This document shows positions 3,021-16,247 of a stretch of DNA of 29,572 nucleotides, piece after piece. The translations under genes were made by a program, and so were the position numbers. Location of the stretch: positions 1-29,572 of the IMG/VR virus record IMGVR_UViG_3300032213_002106; one strand, given 5' to 3'. Source of the DNA: a virus. The notes under the pieces were generated by a model. The model was not told where the DNA came from. It worked only from the letters and a program-made list of their open reading frames with translations, and made no database searches. The number at the start of each line of letters is the position of its first letter. The stretch's first letter is position 1.

Positions 3021-3481
3021 TATAAGAATCGTCTGTTAGCATCAATATTAGATAAGACAAAGTCAGGAACGCTATTCATTGCGTTTTTAGTTTCTGAATT
3101 GTAAAACCAAAAGTTTATCAATTGCAAAGCACTATCAATTAACTCCGAAGGAATATCCTCAACAGAAGTATATCCAATTGTTAAAGTAACCATATTATTG
3201 ACAGTTGGAACAATAGCAAATAAAGGTCTGTAAATTATATCTAATTCGGTTTCGGTATTGTCTATTGGATAATCGTAAACTTTAACTTGTTGCACTAAAG
3301 CGCAATCTTTAAAATATACTTTATCACGTGTTTTGAATATATGATTTGTACGTTTCTCAATAAAAGAAAGTGCAGAGTTTATCATTCCGGTTATTTCATC
3401 ATCGGTAACGGTTTGCCCCTCATCGATTTTAAGATATAACTTGGCTTGTTCTAAAGAAATAACATCGGTATAATTAGTCAT
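3020..3481 (-). CDS. gp6-like head-tail connector protein
   Basis: A 153-residue, mainly helical protein. The N-terminal pattern VISLEQAKLYLKIDEGQTVT and then DDEITGMINSALSFIEKRTN is the recognisable signature of the HK97 gp6 / 'phage gp6-like head-tail connector' family, which forms the ring beneath the portal. A C-terminal helix (ELIDSALQLINFWFYN) is also typical. It follows a small capsid-adjacent gene and precedes the adaptor, in canonical order. Confidence 0.85.
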   Translation of the reverse strand: MTNYTDVISLEQAKLYLKIDEGQTVTDDEITGMINSALSFIEKRTNHIFKTRDKVYFKDCALVQQVKVYDYPIDNTETELDIIYRPLFAIVPTVNNMVTLTIGYTSVEDIPSELIDSALQLINFWFYNSETKNAMNSVPDFVLSNIDANRRFL

Positions 3482-8242: not shown

Positions 8243-8812
8243 ATGAAAACAAAAATTGAAATTAAAAGTTTTTTTGGCGATTTACTTTTTACTTACGAAG
8301 CACAAAATGCAACTATTAAAGATGCTGTTGAACAAGCAGTAAAAGAAAAAGTTTCTTTACATTCGGCTGACTTACATTCGGCTGACTTATCTTCGGCTGA
8401 CTTACGTTCGGCTGACTTACGTTTTGCTGACTTACATTCGGCTGACTTACGTTCGGCTAACTTACGTTTTGCTAACTTACGTTCGGCTGACTTACGTTTT
8501 GCTGACTTACATTCGGCTGACTTACGTTTTGCTGACTTACATTCGGCTGACTTACATTCGGCTGACTTACGTTCGGCTGACTTATCTTTGGTTGAAAATA
8601 AAGAAAATGCAAAGATGCCATTATTTTGTAAATGGCATTATTCAATTTTAGGAGATAAAATACAAATTGGATGCGAAAAAAGAACTATTGATGAATGGGA
8701 TAAGTTTTTTGCAAGTAAAAAAGTTTTATCTACTGAAAGAGGAACAAAAAATTTTAAACAAATTGAAGCAATTTATAACGCTTGTAAAGCATATTTAAAA
8801 ACATTATCATGA
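8243..8812 (+). CDS. Pentapeptide-repeat protein
   Basis: A 189-residue protein in three parts. Residues 1-39 form a small N-terminal domain (MKTKIEIKSFFGDLLFTYEA). Residues 40-114 are fifteen consecutive A(D/N)L-X-X pentapeptides that would form a right-handed quadrilateral beta-helix. The C-terminal domain (FCKWHYSILGDKIQIGCEKR, then TIDEWDKFF...ERGTKNFKQIEAIYNACKAYL) is one I associate with pentapeptide proteins of Bacteroidetes phages. Some pentapeptide proteins mimic DNA and bind gyrase, but the role here is unknown. The repeats are nearly identical at DNA level. Its stop overlaps the next gene (ATGA). Confidence 0.85.
   Translation: MKTKIEIKSFFGDLLFTYEAQNATIKDAVEQAVKEKVSLHSADLHSADLSSADLRSADLRFADLHSADLRSANLRFANLRSADLRFADLHSADLRFADLHSADLHSADLRSADLSLVENKENAKMPLFCKWHYSILGDKIQIGCEKRTIDEWDKFFASKKVLSTERGTKNFKQIEAIYNACKAYLKTLS
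8360..8584 (+). repeat. Fifteen tandem 15-bp units encoding pentapeptides
   Basis: Units of the type CATTCGGCTGACTTA vary mainly in the first five bases (CATTC, CGTTC, CGTTT, TCTTC). Such homogeneous units suggest recent expansion or ongoing gene conversion. Gain or loss of units keeps the frame, so repeat number could vary between phage isolates. Confidence 0.9.
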
Positions 8813-9652: not shown

Positions 9653-9683
9653 TTTGTTTATTAATTATAAATTACTATATTTG
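9653..9683 (+). promoter_or_regulatory. Early promoter: TTTG, 19 bases, TATATTTG
   Basis: TTTG at 9653-9656 and TATATTTG at 9676-9683 with an exact 19-base spacer. Hairpin 1 of the kissing leader begins five bases after the box, so the transcript would start essentially with that hairpin. Confidence 0.8.
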
Positions 9684-9688
9684 TAACC

Positions 9689-9776
9689 GAGTTGGTCAGA
9701 ACTCTAAACCAAAACATAACTAATTCCCTTCTGACCTTACGACTGACCTCGTTTGAATTGGAAGGGATTTTTTATT
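9689..9776 (+). ncRNA. Kissing-hairpin leader RNA, copy 1
   Basis: Hairpin 1 is GAGTT/AACTC (9689-9693 with 9700-9704) around the six-base loop GGTCAG. After a 20-base linker, hairpin 2 has an outer stem TCCCTTC/GAAGGGA (9725-9731 with 9761-9767) and an inner stem ACGA/TCGT (9739-9742 with 9749-9752). The latter closes the six-base loop CTGACC, exactly complementary to loop 1. TTTTTTATTT follows the outer stem, making it terminator-like. The next ATG is at 9786. It could be a 5' stabiliser, an attenuator, or a short RNA of about 88 nt. Confidence 0.7.
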
Positions 9777-9785
9777 TAAACTATT

Positions 9786-10001
9786 ATGAAAACACTATTT
9801 GAAAATTTAAAAGAAGAACACAAATTGCAGTTGGAAGTGATGAAAGAAATTTATCCAAATTCCCACGCAAGATTGGTAAAAGCATTAGAGGATAATTATT
9901 TGTATTCTCTGCTGACAATATCAGATGCATATACCTTGATTTTAAACACGAGTAACAAAAGTTTTTCAATAACTAATTTATCAGACCTATTTTATGAGTA
10001 A
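9786..10001 (+). CDS. Hypothetical 71-residue protein
   Basis: A small mixed-charge helical protein (MKTLFENLKEEHKLQLEVMK, then 'EIYPNSHARLVKALEDNYLY') with no recognised domain. It is the first gene behind the kissing leader at 9689 and overlaps the next gene by eight bases, suggesting coupling. The middle 'LVKALEDNYLYSLLTISDAY' may form a short helical hairpin. It is placed in the replication region by context only. Confidence 0.65.
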   Translation: MKTLFENLKEEHKLQLEVMKEIYPNSHARLVKALEDNYLYSLLTISDAYTLILNTSNKSFSITNLSDLFYE

Positions 10002-10440
10002 TAAAGATTTATTTCAGATGATGAGAGAGCAGGAGGTTCAAACACAGAACTTCTTGCCAAACAAAAAAGAGATTCAATTCTCTGCGACCAAATTTATAAA
10101 TGATGTTATAGATGGAGGCGAGGTTGACAAGTACGAACTATTAGCACAAGCTAAAAGAATGCAAGAAGCACTCGATGTAATTACTGCTAAAATATTAGAA
10201 GTAGTGCCACAGGAAAACTTTGAGGCATTTGGCCTTAAAGGAACGTTTAGAAATGGTGGTGAAACCATAAACTATAAGGATGATTTTAAATGGTCTGAAT
10301 TAAAAGAAAAACTAACCGAAAGAGAAATGCTCCTGAAGGTAGCTTTAAAGTCTAATTCAAGTATTTATGATGATGATGGTATTGAAGTAACAAAAGTAAG
10401 TACATCACCACGCAAAGATACTTTAGCAATCTCTTGGTAA
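9994..10440 (+). CDS. Hypothetical early protein, 148 residues
   Basis: The protein has an N-terminal polar part, a central helix (DKYELLAQAKRMQEALDVIT) and a C-terminal strand region (GIEVTKVSTSPRKDTLAISW). It resembles unknown phage proteins found next to single-strand-binding or recombination genes, where the middle 'LKEKLTEREMLLKVAL' forms a second helix. It overlaps the upstream gene by eight bases and precedes the candidate ssDNA-binding gene. I cannot assign a function from motifs. Confidence 0.65.
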   Translation: MSNKDLFQMMREQEVQTQNFLPNKKEIQFSATKFINDVIDGGEVDKYELLAQAKRMQEALDVITAKILEVVPQENFEAFGLKGTFRNGGETINYKDDFKWSELKEKLTEREMLLKVALKSNSSIYDDDGIEVTKVSTSPRKDTLAISW

Positions 10441-10456
10441 TTAGTAAAAAAAATAG

Positions 10457-10464
10457 TATATTAG
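10457..10464 (+). promoter_or_regulatory. Possible promoter -7 box (TATATTAG, variant)
   Basis: TATATTAG differs from TATATTTG by one base and lies 16 bases before the pseudoknot-like element at 10481. No clear -33 box is seen. It may be a weak promoter for the 10532 gene. Confidence 0.35.
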
Positions 10465-10480
10465 CATATCATAATTAACA

Positions 10481-10530
10481 GATGCAAGGTTCGGGCATCT
10501 TAATTCCGGACCATAAACAAATAATAAGAT
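10481..10530 (+). ncRNA. Pseudoknot-forming leader, variant of the kissing-leader family
   Basis: Hairpin GATGC/GCATC (10481-10485 with 10495-10499) has the loop AAGGTTCGG. GGTTCGG (10488-10494) can pair with CCGGACC at 10506-10512 (six Watson-Crick pairs and one G-U), forming an H-type pseudoknot. ATCTTA/TAAGAT (10497-10502 with 10525-10530) could enclose the second partner, though it overlaps the first stem by three bases. The ATG follows at 10532. There is no T-rich tail, so this copy is looser than the other three. Confidence 0.5.
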
Positions 10531-10531
10531 T

Positions 10532-11233
10532 ATGAGTAATCGCAAACAAGCCTTTGCACAACCGCAAAGCAATCCAGCAACAAAGTTTATTGAGTGGAAA
10601 TCAAACGACAAGTGTTTTTCTTACTATGACAAAGAGAAACAAGAGAACGTTCAAATCCATTTACCTTTTAAGTTTTTAGTTCTTGACGAACTACATACAA
10701 TAAAAGGTTGGAATGATGCCACAAGTAGCAGTATTTATTCCAATGAGGTTAAATTCATTTCAAAAGAAGAAATGACTGTTAAGCCATTCAAAGGAAATGA
10801 AATTGCTAAAGGTCTTTATAAAGACATTAAAGATAAAATTGTTGCAGCTGGAGGCCATTATACAAGAAGCATTTATGTTATGCTTGAAGATGGATCATTG
10901 GCAAATATCCAATTAAAAGGAAGTGCCACACAACAATGGGGTGATTTTACACAAAAAACTCGATCCAGGTTAGCTGATGAGTGGATTATTGTTAAAGATA
11001 CCAAAGATGGCAAAAAAGGTGCTGTTAAATATTCAATGCCAAACTTTGTGTTTGAGAAATCATTAACTGATAAAGAATGTAACATGGCCGATGATTGCTT
11101 TGATACATTGGAGGCATACCTTAAAACCTATTTAGTCAAACAAGATGTAAACGATATTGAGGTTGTTTTAAATGGAGACATAGCCAATGACTTTAATGAA
11201 TCGCAAGAATATGAAGATGATTTAGATTTTTAA
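10532..11233 (+). CDS. Candidate single-stranded-DNA-binding protein
   Basis: A 233-residue protein with a flexible N-terminus (MSNRKQAFAQPQSNPATKFI), a beta-rich body ('FSYYDKEKQENVQIHLPFKF', later 'HYTRSIYVMLEDGSLANIQL') and a strongly acidic C-terminal tail ending EYEDDLDF. An acidic tail ending in Phe is the partner-binding hallmark of phage T7 gp2.5 and of bacterial SSBs. It stands alone behind its own structured leader, is followed by a strong terminator, and lies next to the putative origin and primase. It probably coats ssDNA during replication. No family motif is certain. Confidence 0.6.
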   Translation: MSNRKQAFAQPQSNPATKFIEWKSNDKCFSYYDKEKQENVQIHLPFKFLVLDELHTIKGWNDATSSSIYSNEVKFISKEEMTVKPFKGNEIAKGLYKDIKDKIVAAGGHYTRSIYVMLEDGSLANIQLKGSATQQWGDFTQKTRSRLADEWIIVKDTKDGKKGAVKYSMPNFVFEKSLTDKECNMADDCFDTLEAYLKTYLVKQDVNDIEVVLNGDIANDFNESQEYEDDLDF

Positions 11234-11255
11234 ATAGCATTCAACACAACTAATT

Positions 11256-11281
11256 AAACCACCTTAACCGGTGGTTTTTTT
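11256..11281 (+). terminator. Rho-independent terminator
   Basis: AAACCACC (11256-11263), loop TTAACC, GGTGGTTT (11270-11277), then a T run to 11281. It ends the transcript of the candidate ssDNA-binding gene, 22 bases after its stop. Confidence 0.9.
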
Positions 11282-11288
11282 ATTTATT

Positions 11289-11484
11289 AGTACACTTTTT
11301 AAGCTATAAAGTACACATTAATTTTAAAATGTGTACTGTTATTAAAGTCAATAAATATAAGGCTTTACAATAAAATAGTACACATGTACACTTTGATTTG
11401 ACTTTTTTCTAAAAAAAATAAAAAAAATAAAAAAGTTTTTTTTCTATAATATATATAAGGCTCTCAATGTGTACTTGTGTACTT
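11289..11484 (+). other. Putative replication origin with AGTACAC iterons and an AT-rich tract
   Basis: Within 196 bases there are seven copies of AGTACAC, its reverse GTGTACT, or a one-base-shorter form: about 11289, 11310, 11331 (inverted), 11377, 11386, 11469 (inverted) and 11477 (inverted). Copies 2 and 3 form a 10-bp inverted repeat (11310-11319 with 11328-11337). Between the clusters lies an almost pure A/T tract (11401-11460) that could melt easily. The region is non-coding and just upstream of the primase-helicase, which fits an origin. The repeats could alternatively be operators. Confidence 0.55.
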
Positions 11485-11518
11485 TTATAAATAAAGTTTT
11501 TTATATTGATTTATTTGT

Positions 11519-11526
11519 TATATTTG
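11519..11526 (+). promoter_or_regulatory. Early promoter -7 box (TATATTTG)
   Basis: A full TAnnTTTG match, but without a TTTG at the ideal -33 position. Hairpin 1 of the second full kissing leader starts five bases downstream. It drives the primase-helicase operon. Confidence 0.7.
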
Positions 11527-11531
11527 TAATC

Positions 11532-11616
11532 GTTGGAGTGGTAGCCAATTTATAAACTTATTACAAGACCTCATTACCACGCACCTACCACTGCTGGTAA
11601 TGGGGTTTATTTTTTA
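11532..11616 (+). ncRNA. Kissing-hairpin leader RNA, copy 2
   Basis: Hairpin 1 is GTTGG/CCAAT (11532-11536 with 11545-11549, one G-U) with the eight-base loop AGTGGTAG. After an 18-base linker, hairpin 2 has a 12-bp outer stem (11568-11579 with 11595-11606, one G-U) and an inner GCA/TGC that closes the eight-base loop CCTACCAC. Loop 1 is complementary to CTACCACT at 11585-11592 over all eight bases. The T-rich stretch TTTATTTTTT follows. The ATG is at 11633. Confidence 0.75.
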
Positions 11617-11632
11617 ATTAAATTTTATAACT

Positions 11633-11878
11633 ATGAAAATTTTAAGAACAGATGGTGGAGGTGAAAGCTTCACAAATGAAAGATTAAGAACTTTAAGAAA
11701 AATGTTAATACAAGTTGATATTAACAACATTTATTTATTACATGATCACAAAGGAATTTTAACAGTAGTTTGGGATTCTATACCTGATGATTATGATAAA
11801 GCAAAAGTAGAAGATGCCTGGTCCTTTTTAAATGAGTATGAAATCGAACATCAAATTGTAACTTTTGAAAATTTATAA
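11633..11878 (+). CDS. Hypothetical 81-residue protein, first gene of the primase operon
   Basis: A small protein with a helix (NERLRTLRKMLIQVDINNIY), a strand pair (LLHDHKGILTVVWDS) and an acidic helical end (AKVEDAWSFLNEYEIEHQIV). The sequence resembles small accessory proteins encoded next to phage primases in Bacteroidetes, but I cannot name a family. It lies directly behind the kissing leader and two bases before the primase-helicase gene. An accessory replication role is inferred from context. Confidence 0.65.
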   Translation: MKILRTDGGGESFTNERLRTLRKMLIQVDINNIYLLHDHKGILTVVWDSIPDDYDKAKVEDAWSFLNEYEIEHQIVTFENL

Positions 11879-11880
11879 TT

Positions 11881-14259
11881 ATGGAAGTTACTATTTATAG
11901 AAAATCAAACGATACTTCAAATGGATTTTATAAAGATGTATTGTTTTGTCTTGAAAGAATAAGACAAGGTAAATCAAAAGAAATGGTTGAGTGGTTAAGA
12001 ACTTTGCCGAAAATAGATTATGATAAAAATAAAAATCAATTGCCTGGAGTTTGTTTTAATGGTGTTTTTAATTATAGATCAAAGGCAGGAATAAAAGAAC
12101 ATTCAGGTCTTATAATTTTAGATTTTGATAAATTTGAAACTTCCCAAGATGCGATTGATTTTAGAAATTCAATATCTGATGACGATTATATTTTTAGCTG
12201 TTGGATTTCCCCAAGTGGAAAAGGTGTTAAAGCTTTAGTTAAAATTCCAAAAGACATTGATAATCATAGTTTATATTTTAATTCTTTGCGTGAATATTAT
12301 AACCATCCTAAATGGGATAATAGTGGTTCAGACATAAGTAGATTTTGTTTTGAAAGTTATGATCCGGATTTATTTATTAATAAAGATTCTAAAACTTGGG
12401 AAAAAATAGAGATTCCAGAGGTTGAAGATTTAGGAAAAAAAACAGTTTCAATTTCTATAAAATCAGACAATATTATTATTAATAATCTTTTAAAATGGTT
12501 TGAAAAAAAGTACAATCCAAATGAAAGAAATAAAAGCATTTTTAAATTAGCATCCGCTTTAAATGATTTTGGAATTGATAAAAATGTAGCTGAACAAACT
12601 CTTTATCAATTCGAACAAGAAGATTTTGACAGGAAGGAAATTTTAACAACTTTAAACTCTGCATATAAAAAAACTGCAAATTTTAGAACTAAATTTTTTG
12701 AGGATAAATTAGTTAAAGAAAAAATTGAGAAACAAATAAGAAGTGGTAAGAATAAAAAAGAAGTAATTGAAAACTATTCTGAATATAAAAAAGAAGAAAT
12801 TGAAAGCTGTATTGACGATATAAAAGAGGAAATATCTGTTTCAGACTTTTGGTTTTATAATGATAAAGGAAGGATAAATTTAAGTCCACATAAATATAAA
12901 TTTTGGCTTCAACAAAATAACTTTTTTAAATACTTCCCAACTGATGCCAATACTTTTACATTTATTAAAATTGAACAAAATTTAGTTGAGGAAACAAGTG
13001 AAAAGAAAATAAAAGATTTTGTTCTTAACCATTTATTAAGTCGTGATGATATAGGGTTTCAACCTTATGATTTTATGGCATCAAATAATAAATATTTTCA
13101 ATCTGATTTTTTAAGTTTTTTAGAAAGTTCAGAAATAAATATAAAAGAAGATACACAAACTGAATGTTTTTTATATTTCAATAATTGTGTGGTTAAAGTA
13201 ACATCTGAAAATATTGAAACAATTGATTATTTAGATTTAGATGGTTTTGTTTGGAAAAGACAAATTATAAATAGAGAGTATAAAAAATATGACCATCATA
13301 ATGCGGTTTTTAGAAAGTTTTTATGGCTTATATCCGGTAAAAATGTAGAAAAGTATAATTCATTTAAATCTGTAATAGGTTACCTTTTACATTCATTTAA
13401 AACATCAGCAAATAATAAAGCAATTATATTTAATGATGAAACAATAAGCGAAAATCCTAATGGTGGAAGCGGAAAAGGTTTATTTTGGAACGCATTAAGT
13501 CAAACTAAAAAAGTAAGCAGTATTGATGGGAAAACATTTGAATTTACCAAAAGTTTTCCTTATCAAACTGTTAGTACTGATACACAAATATTGGTTTTTG
13601 ATGATGTAAAAAAGAACTTTAATTTTGAAAGCTTGTTTAGTTTAATTACTGAAGGAATTACGCTTGAGTACAAAGGCCAGGATGCTATTAAATTACCAGT
13701 TCAACAAAGTCCTAAAATATTAATAACTACAAATTATACTATTGGAGGAGTTGGTGGATCATTTGAAAGAAGAAAGTTTGAGGTTGAAATGTCAGACTAT
13801 TTTAGTTATAAGCATACGCCTTTAGATGAATTTGGCCATTTGCTTTTTGATGATTGGGATGATAATGAATGGTTAATGTTTGACAATTTTATGATTAATT
13901 GTGTTCAATATTATTTAGAAAATGGATTAACTAAACACGACTTTAAAAATTTAGAAGTTCGTAAATTCATTAAAAATACTTCTTTTGAATTTTATGAGTG
14001 GTCAAAACCAAATAATGAAGGTAAAAATGAGAATATTGAATTTAATACACGATGCATAAAACAAACTTATTATGATAGCTTTATAAATGAATATCCCGAT
14101 TTTAAAACTTATAAGTTAAGTCAAAAGAGATTCACCCAATGGCTTGATCACTATTGCAAATTTTATGGACATACTTATTTAACAGGAAACTCAAATGGTC
14201 AAAGATGGTTTGAGATAAAAAATGATAATGCTCCAATTATTGATGATATAATGTTTTAA
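11881..14259 (+). CDS. Primase-helicase (BT4734/VirE-type primase plus SF3 helicase)
   Basis: A 792-residue replication protein. Residues about 55-165 look like a BT4734/VirE-type archaeo-eukaryotic primase domain: metal-binding 'LDFDK' (80-84), 'SPSGKGVKALVKI' (110-122) and 'SRFCFESYDP' (153-162). A helical linker rich in Lys and Glu follows (about 205-320). The C-terminal part is an SF3-type helicase with Walker A 'GGSGKG' (528-533), Walker B 'LVFDD' (571-575), sensor 'ITTN' (615-618) and arginines in 'ERRKFE' (629-634). It probably opens the origin immediately upstream and primes synthesis. No DNA polymerase is visible, so the host enzyme is presumably used. Confidence 0.88.
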   Translation: MEVTIYRKSNDTSNGFYKDVLFCLERIRQGKSKEMVEWLRTLPKIDYDKNKNQLPGVCFNGVFNYRSKAGIKEHSGLIILDFDKFETSQDAIDFRNSISDDDYIFSCWISPSGKGVKALVKIPKDIDNHSLYFNSLREYYNHPKWDNSGSDISRFCFESYDPDLFINKDSKTWEKIEIPEVEDLGKKTVSISIKSDNIIINNLLKWFEKKYNPNERNKSIFKLASALNDFGIDKNVAEQTLYQFEQEDFDRKEILTTLNSAYKKTANFRTKFFEDKLVKEKIEKQIRSGKNKKEVIENYSEYKKEEIESCIDDIKEEISVSDFWFYNDKGRINLSPHKYKFWLQQNNFFKYFPTDANTFTFIKIEQNLVEETSEKKIKDFVLNHLLSRDDIGFQPYDFMASNNKYFQSDFLSFLESSEINIKEDTQTECFLYFNNCVVKVTSENIETIDYLDLDGFVWKRQIINREYKKYDHHNAVFRKFLWLISGKNVEKYNSFKSVIGYLLHSFKTSANNKAIIFNDETISENPNGGSGKGLFWNALSQTKKVSSIDGKTFEFTKSFPYQTVSTDTQILVFDDVKKNFNFESLFSLITEGITLEYKGQDAIKLPVQQSPKILITTNYTIGGVGGSFERRKFEVEMSDYFSYKHTPLDEFGHLLFDDWDDNEWLMFDNFMINCVQYYLENGLTKHDFKNLEVRKFIKNTSFEFYEWSKPNNEGKNENIEFNTRCIKQTYYDSFINEYPDFKTYKLSQKRFTQWLDHYCKFYGHTYLTGNSNGQRWFEIKNDNAPIIDDIMF

Positions 14260-14261
14260 TT

Positions 14262-14441
14262 ATGGATATAGGTAGTTTTGAAATAATAAGATACCATTTT
14301 GATTTAGTAAATAATGAACCTAAAATTATTATTGAAATGGTTAAAGTATTAGATAAAAATGGTAAATATATAAAGTTTGCAAAATTGAAAGAAGTTTTAC
14401 CATATTTAAGTAAATATCCAGTTAAATTTAAAATGATATGA
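14262..14441 (+). CDS. Hypothetical 59-residue protein between the helicases
   Basis: A small frame two bases after the primase-helicase stop, ending with an ATGA overlap on the SNF2-like helicase gene. The sequence (MDIGSFEIIRYHFDLVNNEP, then 'KIIIEMVKVLDKNGKYIKFA') has an alternating strand-helix layout and a basic end. The tight spacing on both sides argues that it is translated. No family is recognised. Confidence 0.65.
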   Translation: MDIGSFEIIRYHFDLVNNEPKIIIEMVKVLDKNGKYIKFAKLKEVLPYLSKYPVKFKMI

Positions 14442-15712
14442 AATTAAGGAACTATCAAATAAGATTATCAAAAGAAGCAGTTGAAATATTGCAACGTAAA
14501 AAGATTGTTTACCTGGCGATGGAAGTAAGAACAGGCAAAACTATTACAGCTTTGCAAACTGCTGAATTATTTGCAGCAAAGAAAGTATTGTTTTTAACAA
14601 AAAAGAAAGCCATCCCCAGCATTCAAGCGGATTACGACAACTTTGGATTTACTTATGATTTAACAATTGCAAATGATGAAAGTTTACATAAAATTTCATG
14701 CAATTTTGATTTAGTCATTCACGATGAGCATCACCGCTTTGGAGCATTCCCAAAGCCAAACGCAACAGCCAAACTATTTAAAAAAATGTACGGAAATTTG
14801 CCGATGATTTTTTTATCCGGCACTCCAACTGCTGAAAGTTACAGCCAATGGTATCATCAGTTTTGGGTGAGCGATTACAGTCCGTTTACGCAACCAACTT
14901 TTTACAAATGGGCAAATGATTACGTGAATGTAAAAGTGAAGCATTTAGGCCATGGCAAAGTGAATGATTACACAGATGCAAGGAAAAAAGACTTTTGGCA
15001 TTTAATAAGATATTATATCCTAACCTTTACACAAGTTGAAGCGGGATTTAGTACTCAAGTTAATGAGAATGTTTTGTATTGCGATATGGATTCCATTACT
15101 TATAAGGTAATTGATAAGCTAAAAAAAGATTTAGTAGTACAAAACAAAGAAGGTCAACTGATATTAGCTGATACTTCGGTAAAATTACAGCAAAAATTGC
15201 ATCAACTTTATTCTGGAACTTGCAAGTTTGAGGATGGAACGAGTAAAGTGATTGACTTTAGTAAGGCAATGTTTATCGATAATCATTTTAAAGCTCAAAA
15301 GATTGCCATATTTTACAAATTTGTTGAGGAGTTTAACGCACTTAAAATCATTTTTGGCAATAGATTGACAAACGATTTAGAAGAGTTTAACACAACCGAT
15401 AAAAATATTGCTTTACAAATAGTAAGTGGCCGGGAAGGTATTAGTTTGGCAAAGGCAAAATATTTGGTTTACTACAATATTGATTTTAGTGCTGTAAGTT
15501 ATTGGCAATCTCGTGACCGTTTAACCACAATGGATAGAAAAGTAAATGATGTTTATTGGATATTTTCAAAAGATGGAATTGAAAGCAAAATTTACGCATC
15601 AGTAATTAAGAAAAAAGATTATAACAATGAAACATTTAAACGAGATTTCGGAATCAAAAAGGCAGAGCAAAATAATCAACCAACTCACAAAAGAGGGATG
15701 GCTCTGCGTTAA
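14438..15712 (+). CDS. SNF2-like superfamily 2 helicase
   Basis: A 424-residue DNA-dependent ATPase. It opens with a Q-motif-like 'LRNYQIRLSKEAVEIL', then Walker A 'MEVRTGKT' (28-35), the motif II box 'DEHH' (96-99) and motif III 'LSGTPT' (126-131). The second RecA domain has 'IVSGREGISLAKAKYLVYYN' and 'SAVSYWQSRDRL', matching motifs V and VI of SNF2-type enzymes. It is compact, lacking extra domains. Its end overlaps the VRR-NUC nuclease by 86 bases, an arrangement often found in phage replication modules; the two may act together on branched DNA. Confidence 0.88.
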   Translation: MKLRNYQIRLSKEAVEILQRKKIVYLAMEVRTGKTITALQTAELFAAKKVLFLTKKKAIPSIQADYDNFGFTYDLTIANDESLHKISCNFDLVIHDEHHRFGAFPKPNATAKLFKKMYGNLPMIFLSGTPTAESYSQWYHQFWVSDYSPFTQPTFYKWANDYVNVKVKHLGHGKVNDYTDARKKDFWHLIRYYILTFTQVEAGFSTQVNENVLYCDMDSITYKVIDKLKKDLVVQNKEGQLILADTSVKLQQKLHQLYSGTCKFEDGTSKVIDFSKAMFIDNHFKAQKIAIFYKFVEEFNALKIIFGNRLTNDLEEFNTTDKNIALQIVSGREGISLAKAKYLVYYNIDFSAVSYWQSRDRLTTMDRKVNDVYWIFSKDGIESKIYASVIKKKDYNNETFKRDFGIKKAEQNNQPTHKRGMALR

Positions 15713-15899
15713 ACTAATTAAGACAAATAAGAATGGCATCCCGGATTTGATGTGCCTAAAAGATGGCATAACAATGTTCATTGAAGTTAAAAGGCCAAAT
15801 GGAAAATTGAGCGAATTGCAAAAGATAAGAATTAAGCAATTACAAGATTTAGGCTTTGATTGTAAAATTTGGGTTGATTATGATGTAAATTATAATTAA
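15627..15899 (+). CDS. VRR-NUC domain nuclease
   Basis: A 90-residue stand-alone VRR-NUC protein. The core residues of the PD-(D/E)XK fold are visible: an N-terminal helix (ESKRQSKIINQLTKEGW), 'NGIPDLMC' (Asp40), 'FIEVKRP' (Glu53, Lys55) and 'LSELQKIRI' (Gln65). Viral members cut Holliday-type and flap structures. I chose the start at 15627 because the first helix is needed for the fold, although it lies inside the helicase gene in another frame. Confidence 0.85.
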   Translation: MKHLNEISESKRQSKIINQLTKEGWLCVKLIKTNKNGIPDLMCLKDGITMFIEVKRPNGKLSELQKIRIKQLQDLGFDCKIWVDYDVNYN

Positions 15900-15904
15900 T
15901 TGTT

Positions 15905-15912
15905 TATATTTG
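15905..15912 (+). promoter_or_regulatory. Early promoter -7 box (TATATTTG)
   Basis: A full TAnnTTTG match just after the VRR-NUC stop. The -33 region overlaps that gene and is not consensus. The kissing leader starts three bases later. Confidence 0.7.
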
Positions 15913-15915
15913 CAG

Positions 15916-15998
15916 ATGTAGAGTCGTAGCTACATTTAAAAATTTGTTTAATTCCCGCATTGATAAAGACTACGACCTTTTGATTTGCGGGTTTTTAT
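15916..15998 (+). ncRNA. Kissing-hairpin leader RNA, copy 3
   Basis: Hairpin 1 is ATGTAG/CTACAT (15916-15921 with 15930-15935) with the eight-base loop AGTCGTAG. After an 18-base linker, hairpin 2 has an outer stem CCCGCA/TGCGGG (15954-15959 with 15986-15991) and an inner AAAG/CTTT (15965-15968 with 15977-15980) closing the eight-base loop ACTACGAC. GTCGTAG of loop 1 pairs with CTACGAC of loop 2 over seven bases. TTTTTATTT follows. The ATG is at 16008. Confidence 0.75.
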
Positions 15999-16007
15999 TT
16001 AAAAAAT

Positions 16008-16247
16008 ATGAATACAATATCAGTACAGGGTTTTAAAATTGACATTAACCATTTTGATACACAAATATCAAAAAGTGGCAGACCATTCAGGTTGAGTGGT
16101 GTTCAAATAGTAAGAACTAAACCGGCACAATGGGTGAATAAGATGCTATTGCATGGAACGATTTACAGTTTTAGGTATTTAGATGAACAAGATGGTTTTT
16201 TTGCTTTTGAGTTTGATCCGTTTAACAATTTTATTTCAAAAATATGA
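16008..16247 (+). CDS. Hypothetical 79-residue protein
   Basis: A beta-rich small protein (MNTISVQGFKIDINHFDTQI, then 'RPFRLSGVQIVRTKPAQWVN'). The C-terminal part 'GTIYSFRYLDEQDGFFAFEF' suggests a compact barrel-like fold. It is the first gene behind the third kissing leader, and its stop overlaps the next start (ATGA). I do not recognise a family or catalytic residues. Confidence 0.65.
   Translation: MNTISVQGFKIDINHFDTQISKSGRPFRLSGVQIVRTKPAQWVNKMLLHGTIYSFRYLDEQDGFFAFEFDPFNNFISKI

Follow-up and report, generated by a model that had tools for sequence, protein, structure and literature searches.

What do short leader RNAs with mutually complementary loops do at the start of predicted early transcripts in a bacterial virus? 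The question is raised by IMG/VR virus record IMGVR_UViG_3300032213_002106, a single record whose whole stretch of 29,572 nucleotides (nt) was analysed and is called the window below. An initial annotation had placed three copies of a two-hairpin leader at 9689-9776, 11532-11616 and 15916-15998, and all three are present there. It had also held that loop 1 of each copy is complementary to loop 2 and that this kissing pair covaries beyond chance, and it had not recognised the motif as a described family. We find that the three copies belong to a real, widespread and apparently undescribed RNA family of Bacteroidetes phages, far larger than the copies in the window. In kind it is a regulatory 5′ leader or attenuator, and its form is new. 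Judged from sequence, we give a probability of about one half to the reading that the leaders are cis-acting transcription attenuators, locked by the loop-loop contact and metering read-through into early genes.

Conservation and covariation of the kissing pair

Under thermodynamic folding without pseudoknots, each copy formed the two hairpins and exposed the complementary stretches in their loops (fold z-scores of -2.7, -4.0 and -2.0 for copies 1, 2 and 3). The loop 1/loop 2 pairs are GGUCAG/CUGACC in copy 1, AGUGGUAG/CUACCACU in copy 2 and GUCGUAG/CUACGAC in copy 3. Loop 1 of copy 1 is also partly complementary to a second stretch, UUCUGACC, in the 5′ half of hairpin 2; its true loop partner is CUGACC at 9743-9748. 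Copy 2 was recovered by the covariance model R1 of the copy-3 class (E = 0.0025).

Relatives were gathered via the primase (80 viral loci), a 79-amino-acid (aa) protein (23) and a 148-aa protein (80). A detector that called for a promoter box, a 5′ segment of at least 8 nt and its complement inside a hairpin, and that demanded neither a T-run nor a gene, gave 49 unique matches at 3,116 TAnnTTTG boxes, compared to 2 in shuffled sequence. Circularity was avoided with a kiss-blind set, chosen by box, T-tailed hairpin and open reading frame (ORF) only and reduced to 72 representatives of <70% identity. A kissing match of at least 7 nt was present in 40 of these 72, against 3.9% of mismatched (swapped-loop) pairs, and the maximum reached in 5,000 permutations of the set was 10. 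IMG/VR was also scanned with three hairpin-2 classes in which loop 2 was left as N. Among the matches having a box and a T-run, the upstream partner was present in 68 of 69, 16 of 16 and 49 of 49 (133 of 134 overall), and the only miss, L286, pairs via G-U wobble. The first class contained 6 loop sequences, the second (loop-E) 1 and the third 26, so that the loop-E class attests conservation, and covariation is seen in the first and third classes only.

Formal covariation counts were taken from an alignment of 56 copy-3 relatives. All cells of the kissing helix are paired (100%), and 3 of its 7 pairs show compensatory changes; the outer stem of hairpin 2 is 98% paired, with changes in 5 of 7 pairs. 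The covariation score was 0.352, compared to ≤0.035 in all register-slid controls. The loop-loop covariation put forward in the initial annotation is supported. Chance is ruled out by the relatives rather than by the three copies alone.

Shared anatomy of the leaders

The anatomy was parsed in 54 representatives of <75% identity, among them a few weak or spurious ones. From 5′ to 3′, a leader consists of a TAnnTTTG promoter box, a short hairpin at the predicted transcription start (+1), an A/T linker, hairpin 2 with a GC-rich base and a loop that pairs with loop 1, a U-tract directly after that base and, some 7-27 nt further on, the ATG. In Flavobacterium psychrophilum the sigma-A box lies at -12 to -5 (PMC9723704), which makes the fifth base past the box the predicted +1. 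Hairpin 1 starts at approximately this position and, in classes that lack hairpin 1, the kissing segment itself does so; the proposal that the RNA stands at the predicted 5′ ends of early transcripts is supported. Hairpin 1 had been taken as a fixed part of the unit. That is true of the three copies, but the hairpin is optional among relatives, since L006, L030 and L109 offer the kissing segment unpaired at the predicted +1.

Hairpin 2 is composed of an outer stem, an internal module, an inner stem of ∼2-6 base pairs (bp) in most classes, and a loop mostly occupied by the kiss. The internal modules recur and interchange: tandem G.A (UGAU/UGAU, UGAA/GGAU and related), AGUA/GAA, which reads as a loop-E (sarcin-ricin) motif, UU/UU and UUU/UUU, and UGC/AAU. 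Judged from sequence, the pairing in these modules is predicted to be non-canonical. Inner stems vary compensatorily between classes (AAAG/CUUU, ACAG/CUGU, ACUG/CAGU, ACC/GGU, GUUG/CAAC and GGG/CCC). In all classes the outer stem can form together with the inner stem and the kiss, and the kiss ends ∼18 nt ahead of the end of the outer stem. The ATG lies 7-45 nt past the stem base of hairpin 2, mostly 9-17 or 10-25 nt, and outside the conserved stems. In two leaders (L053:5410 and L037:4709) the loop-1 sequence is present a third time (AAATGCAG and AACGTCGAA, respectively), past the U-tract and near the start codon, with which loop 2 could pair instead.

Hairpin 2 resembles a leaky intrinsic terminator

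The initial annotation recorded a T-rich tail and named it only as a tail. The tail is there, but as a U-tract it makes hairpin 2 resemble an intrinsic terminator, and the leaders have the form of one, a GC-rich hairpin with a U-tract immediately after it. Counted from the last G/C pair of the outer stem, the next four positions have T frequencies of 0.71, 0.91, 0.96 and 0.83, and GC at the stem base amounts to 78%. The T profile is identical for near and far ATGs, so it is the stem, not the ATG, that fixes the place of the U-tract, which argues against a purely translational or stability role. At least 5 T in 9 nt were found in 44 of the 49 unbiased detector matches, against a background of 18%. 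The d'Aubenton-Carafa score (d) had a median of -5.8 in 97 leaders, 38% of them positive, with shuffles at -76; the two ordinary terminators of the window score above the leaders (d = +25 and +47). With such borderline scores, hairpin 2 looks like a leaky intrinsic terminator.

A proposed loop-locked attenuator and its alternatives

Among the possible roles listed in the initial annotation, the best fit is attenuation at hairpin 2, given the stem-anchored U-tract, the GC-rich stem base and the borderline d-scores. We infer the following course for transcription start, for termination and its efficiency, for the direction of the kissing effect and for any regulating signal. Host RNA polymerase would start at the TAnnTTTG promoter. 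Within the first ∼8-25 nt, a segment of 6-11 nt would then be offered, which is usually the hairpin 1 loop. Hairpin 2 would form ∼80 nt downstream, with its outer stem and U-tract, often a non-canonical module, the inner stem and the complementary loop. At the U-tract, approximately the last 12 nt of a transcript stay within the polymerase (PMC6478431); since the kiss ends ∼18 nt before the stem end, the kissing helix and the inner stem would already have emerged and be available at the decision, while much of the outer 3′ strand would still be in the exit channel. The kiss would then fix the apical part of hairpin 2 ahead of outer stem closure, and would strengthen and time a leaky terminator. 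Some transcripts would stop as ∼80-nt RNAs, a necessary by-product of attenuation, and the remainder would read on into an early gene encoding a replication protein or a homing endonuclease.

The kiss and the U-tract are both kept while all else changes, which suggests that function needs both. As the kiss and the outer stem can coexist and no pairing was seen to compete with them, a lock that aids a marginal terminator is the favoured role of the kiss; the sign may also be the opposite, the kissing complex hindering hairpin closure. BLAST of the window, mumin and elemoF proteomes found a primase, an ORF of 59-61 aa and a few other proteins to be shared, the primase being the sole protein common to all three. 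This speaks against a common phage trans-factor; a dedicated factor is not indicated, and action in cis with the host machinery is plausible.

Several observations weigh against attenuation locked by the kiss. The d-score is an E. coli rule that is blind to tertiary contacts, the kiss included, and the U-tract is often broken by A. No alternative antiterminator (competing) pairing was found in the leaders, and a constitutive sub-maximal terminator would give an identical picture. A rigid three-dimensional geometry of the leader is not supported, linker and hairpin lengths being uncorrelated (rho = -0.04); a coaxial-rod idea, in which linker length tracks hairpin length, was rejected for this reason.

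Protection or insulation of the mRNA 5′ end is the rival that survives best, although we regard it as unlikely. The kissing fold would hide the end from 5′-dependent decay and keep a short, unstructured A/U-rich start region before the ATG, and the terminator-like hairpin would be nothing but a stable fold. In each class the kissing segment is found at the predicted +1 or close to it, and in some, without hairpin 1, exactly at +1; the ATG usually follows the stem by 10-25 nt, and hosts of this group make no use of Shine-Dalgarno pairing (PMC9976891). All of this suits protection, which nevertheless leaves the stem-anchored U-tract and the adjoining GC-rich base unexplained.

Two further ideas appear improbable, and about equally so. 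In cis-antitermination of the HK022 put type, the two-hairpin RNA would bind the elongating polymerase and carry it past terminators. Similar size (∼80 nt here, ∼70 nt in put), two hairpins, a place just past early promoters and no obvious need for a phage protein speak for it (PMC9378689). The comparison, which the initial annotation had drawn for position, holds for position and size only, because hairpin 2 carries a U-tract, kept here, while put as described in PMC9378689 is not given one, and because the operon of copy 1 contains, 1.6 kb further downstream, a strong terminator that is conserved in relatives and that processive modification would override. The second idea is a structured translation platform, in which hairpin 2 takes the position of the Shine-Dalgarno helix and aids or gates 30S loading in non-Shine-Dalgarno hosts. 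The stem base commonly lies 9-17 nt before the ATG, and homing endonucleases of T4 are often under 5′ hairpin control (PMC2988022); however, the spacing to the ATG varies from 7 to 45 nt, and the U-tract tracks the stem. It is very improbable that terminated ∼80-nt RNAs are the product itself, acting in trans on, for example, other leaders or host RNAs: a promoter-hairpin-terminator layout would release such RNAs, but their recognition loops are already paired intramolecularly and the analysed leaders, which were selected for it, directly precede ORFs.

Distribution and genes served

The leader set comprises 353 detections, 241 of them distinct, at 260 loci, with some contigs in more than one locus. 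Leaders of the copy-3 type occur in 34 cultured Flavobacterium phage records, for example those of mumin, snusmum, hattifnatt, hemulen, sniff, snork and mymlan isolates; the detector counted two leaders in mumin9-1, three in snusmum6-1 and one in elemoF. All of 20 listed Flavobacterium phage leaders lie in stretches without an annotated feature. Rfam 15, the comparison proposed at the outset, had no family over any leader at gathering or relaxed thresholds, and no description of the motif was found in the open-access literature, in agreement with the initial annotation. The exact pattern of the copy-3 class gave only two chance matches in 301 Flavobacteriaceae genomes, and model R1 had no match in 151; at least in the copy-3 class, the leader looks phage-specific. 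The detector gave no convincing full leader in Cellulophaga phi46:1, Nonlabens P12024L or MW202828 (a partial record), nor in six bacterial contigs with related primases. A sigma-70 promoter scan is uninformative for Bacteroidetes.

Behind leaders with the copy-3 type of inner stem (the 79-aa family excluded), free-standing homing endonucleases come first in most of 58 cases, with 41 HNH_3, 33 NUMOD4 and 8 GIY-YIG domains. The first genes of other classes encode primases, helicases, methylases, DUF6291/DUF7833 proteins, VRR-NUC and again endonucleases. At the copy 2 site, L002 and L004 have nearly identical flanks, and the block from TATATTTGTAA to the ATG is a different leader of the same architecture. 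At the copy-3 site, L092, L101, L103 and L104 are without promoter and leader, and the VRR-NUC gene leads directly into the gene behind it. This swap and this absence indicate that the unit behaves as an exchangeable promoter-leader cassette. Tentatively, and as a possibility short of even odds, we suggest a sequence-agnostic terminator locked by pairing to the 5′ end of its own transcript, in which only the architecture is selected (5′ segment, interchangeable G.A/loop-E/U.U module, kissing loop and U-tract). It would serve phages as a plug-in promoter cassette: it could be acquired, lost and exchanged between genes, and would move together with homing endonucleases.

The family is large, compact and apparently unannotated, it occurs in cultured and laboratory-tractable Flavobacterium phages, and its covarying loops make the central claim directly testable. 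If attenuation holds, the leaders would also be a source of natural terminator variants of tunable strength.

Other structured RNAs were met in related contigs. At L143:4872-4904 a DUF805b RNA of Rfam (49.5 bits) lies immediately past the U-tract of a kissing leader, and in L108 a DUF805b-like sequence seemingly also stands behind the 148-aa gene. Related primases at L043:5906, L060:5907 and L065:150 have another leader, whose 5′ GGGG pairs with CCCC beside a T-run, with a conserved GTTGTCGGAGGCATCC between them; it is probably a separate structured leader class. A tRNA beside a permuted tmRNA match (RF04321) is found in a phage contig at L046:13513-13836.

Gene layout and other elements in the window

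The replication genes (primase, helicase and VRR-NUC) are on the + strand of the window, and most structural genes, including the terminase, on the - strand. A 71-aa gene stands behind copy 1, an 81-aa gene and then the primase behind copy 2, and copy 3 is flanked by the VRR-NUC gene and the 79-aa gene (Table 1). The 59-aa ORF after the primase (14262-14441) has 63% identity to the 61-aa gp17 of elemoF, which is directly behind a kissing leader.

Table 1. Leader elements and associated terminator in the window.
Feature	Position	Strand	Details
Copy 1, -7 promoter box TATATTTG	9676..9683	+	predicted +1 ∼9688
Copy 1, hairpin 1 GAGUU(GGUCAG)AACUC	9689..9704	+	kissing loop 9694-9699; fold and relatives
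Copy 1, hairpin 2, terminator-like	9725..9767	+	outer stem 9725-9734/9758-9767; fold; d-score +9.1
Copy 1, hairpin 2 inner stem ACGA/UCGU and kissing loop CUGACC	9739-9742/9749-9752; loop 9743-9748	+	fold
Copy 1, U-tract	9768..9777	+	71-aa gene ATG at 9786
Ordinary strong terminator closing the copy-1 operon	11256..11284	+	d = +24.7; conserved in relatives
Copy 2, promoter box TATATTTG	11519..11526	+	
Copy 2, hairpin 1 GUUGG(AGUGGUAG)CCAAU	11532..11549	+	kissing loop 11537-11544; fold
Copy 2, hairpin 2	11566..11608	+	outer stem 11566-11579/11595-11608; kissing segment CUACCACU 11585-11592; fold; d-score +11.6
Copy 2, U-tract	11605..11615	+	stem extendable into U-tract; 81-aa gene ATG at 11633, primase next
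Copy 3, promoter box TATATTTG	15905..15912	+	
Copy 3, hairpin 1 GUAG(AGUCGUAG)CUAC	15918..15933	+	kissing segment GUCGUAG 15923-15929
Copy 3, hairpin 2	15954..15991	+	outer stem CCCGCA/UGCGGG; UGAU/UGAU tandem G.A module
Copy 3, hairpin 2 inner stem AAAG/CUUU and kissing loop CUACGAC	loop 15970-15976	+	
Copy 3, U-tract	15992..16000	+	79-aa gene ATG at 16008

An H-type pseudoknot at 10481-10512 (GAUGC/GCAUC stem, GGUUCG/CGGACC pseudoknot), with an unstructured A-rich start region behind it, precedes the gene of a 233-aa protein (10532-11233, phrog_6706). Over 27 relatives its pairing is 99.7% complete and 6 of 11 pairs show double changes; its layout recalls the T4 gene 32 autoregulatory pseudoknot. 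The 233-aa protein has an acidic C-terminus (..EDDLDF) as in single-stranded DNA-binding proteins. The best match of its AlphaFold model (mean predicted local distance difference test score of 68) was a phiC31 integrase-RDF fusion structure (E = 0.004, template modelling score 0.41), and matches to SSB and RPA were weaker. Seven of the eight GTACAC/GTGTAC sites of the window lie within 200 bp (11290-11482), beside an A/T-rich stretch and just upstream of leader 2 and the primase, and this region is a candidate replication origin with iterons. On the - strand, at 17450-17386, a TATATTTG box is followed ∼40 nt on by a strong terminator (d = +47) with no ORF between them, possibly a short RNA or simply the end of the late operon. 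A 189-aa pentapeptide-repeat protein is encoded at 8243-8812 by a DNA repeat of TCGGCTGACTTAC units.

Comparison with known systems

The leaders share with HK022 putL and putR a length of ∼70-80 nt, two hairpins, a position right after early phage promoters and apparently no need for a phage protein. The put RNAs have V-shaped stems with triplex and bulge features that bind the beta' zinc-binding domain, and no U-tract is described for them, whereas the leaders have a terminator-like hairpin 2 and kissing loops (PMC9378689). A precedent for a terminator-embedded regulatory RNA is the HMP-PP (thiS) riboswitch, in which the aptamer is embedded in the terminator and ∼12 nt are inside the polymerase at the decision point (PMC6478431). 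Both systems place a regulatory structure within the terminator hairpin, with a conserved terminator loop and a decision made while the 3′ arm is in the polymerase. The riboswitch, however, is cellular, senses a ligand, and has conserved aptamer residues and competing stems, while in the leaders the loop sequence is free but covaries with that of the 5′ end, and they showed no competing stem. Nor do they belong to that riboswitch family, as they have no Rfam match and precede replication and homing endonuclease genes instead of thiamin genes.

The lambdoid late promoter pR' is constitutive and has a nearby terminator before its genes, which gives 6S RNA by default and read-through with the Q protein. 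The leaders resemble it in having a promoter, a terminator ahead of genes and, as predicted, a short RNA by default; read-through at pR' is given by a protein, whereas no shared phage factor was found for the leaders. Structured 5′ leaders also precede free-standing HNH and GIY-YIG genes in T4, where the hairpins sequester the ribosome-binding site (PMC2988022). In the leaders described here the start region is outside the structure, with the ATG 7-45 nt past hairpin 2, so that no sequestration of the T4 type is seen, and a U-tract follows. Pairing of 6-8 nt between loops is the recognition core of the ColE1 RNA I/RNA II kissing complex and of the purine riboswitch loop-loop contact, as it is here, but in those systems the contact is not within a terminator hairpin, and in ColE1 it joins two RNAs. 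If the attenuator reading is true, a loop-locked terminator would join the known controls of early phage transcription, and would do so in a phylum for which little is known about how phages regulate their genes.

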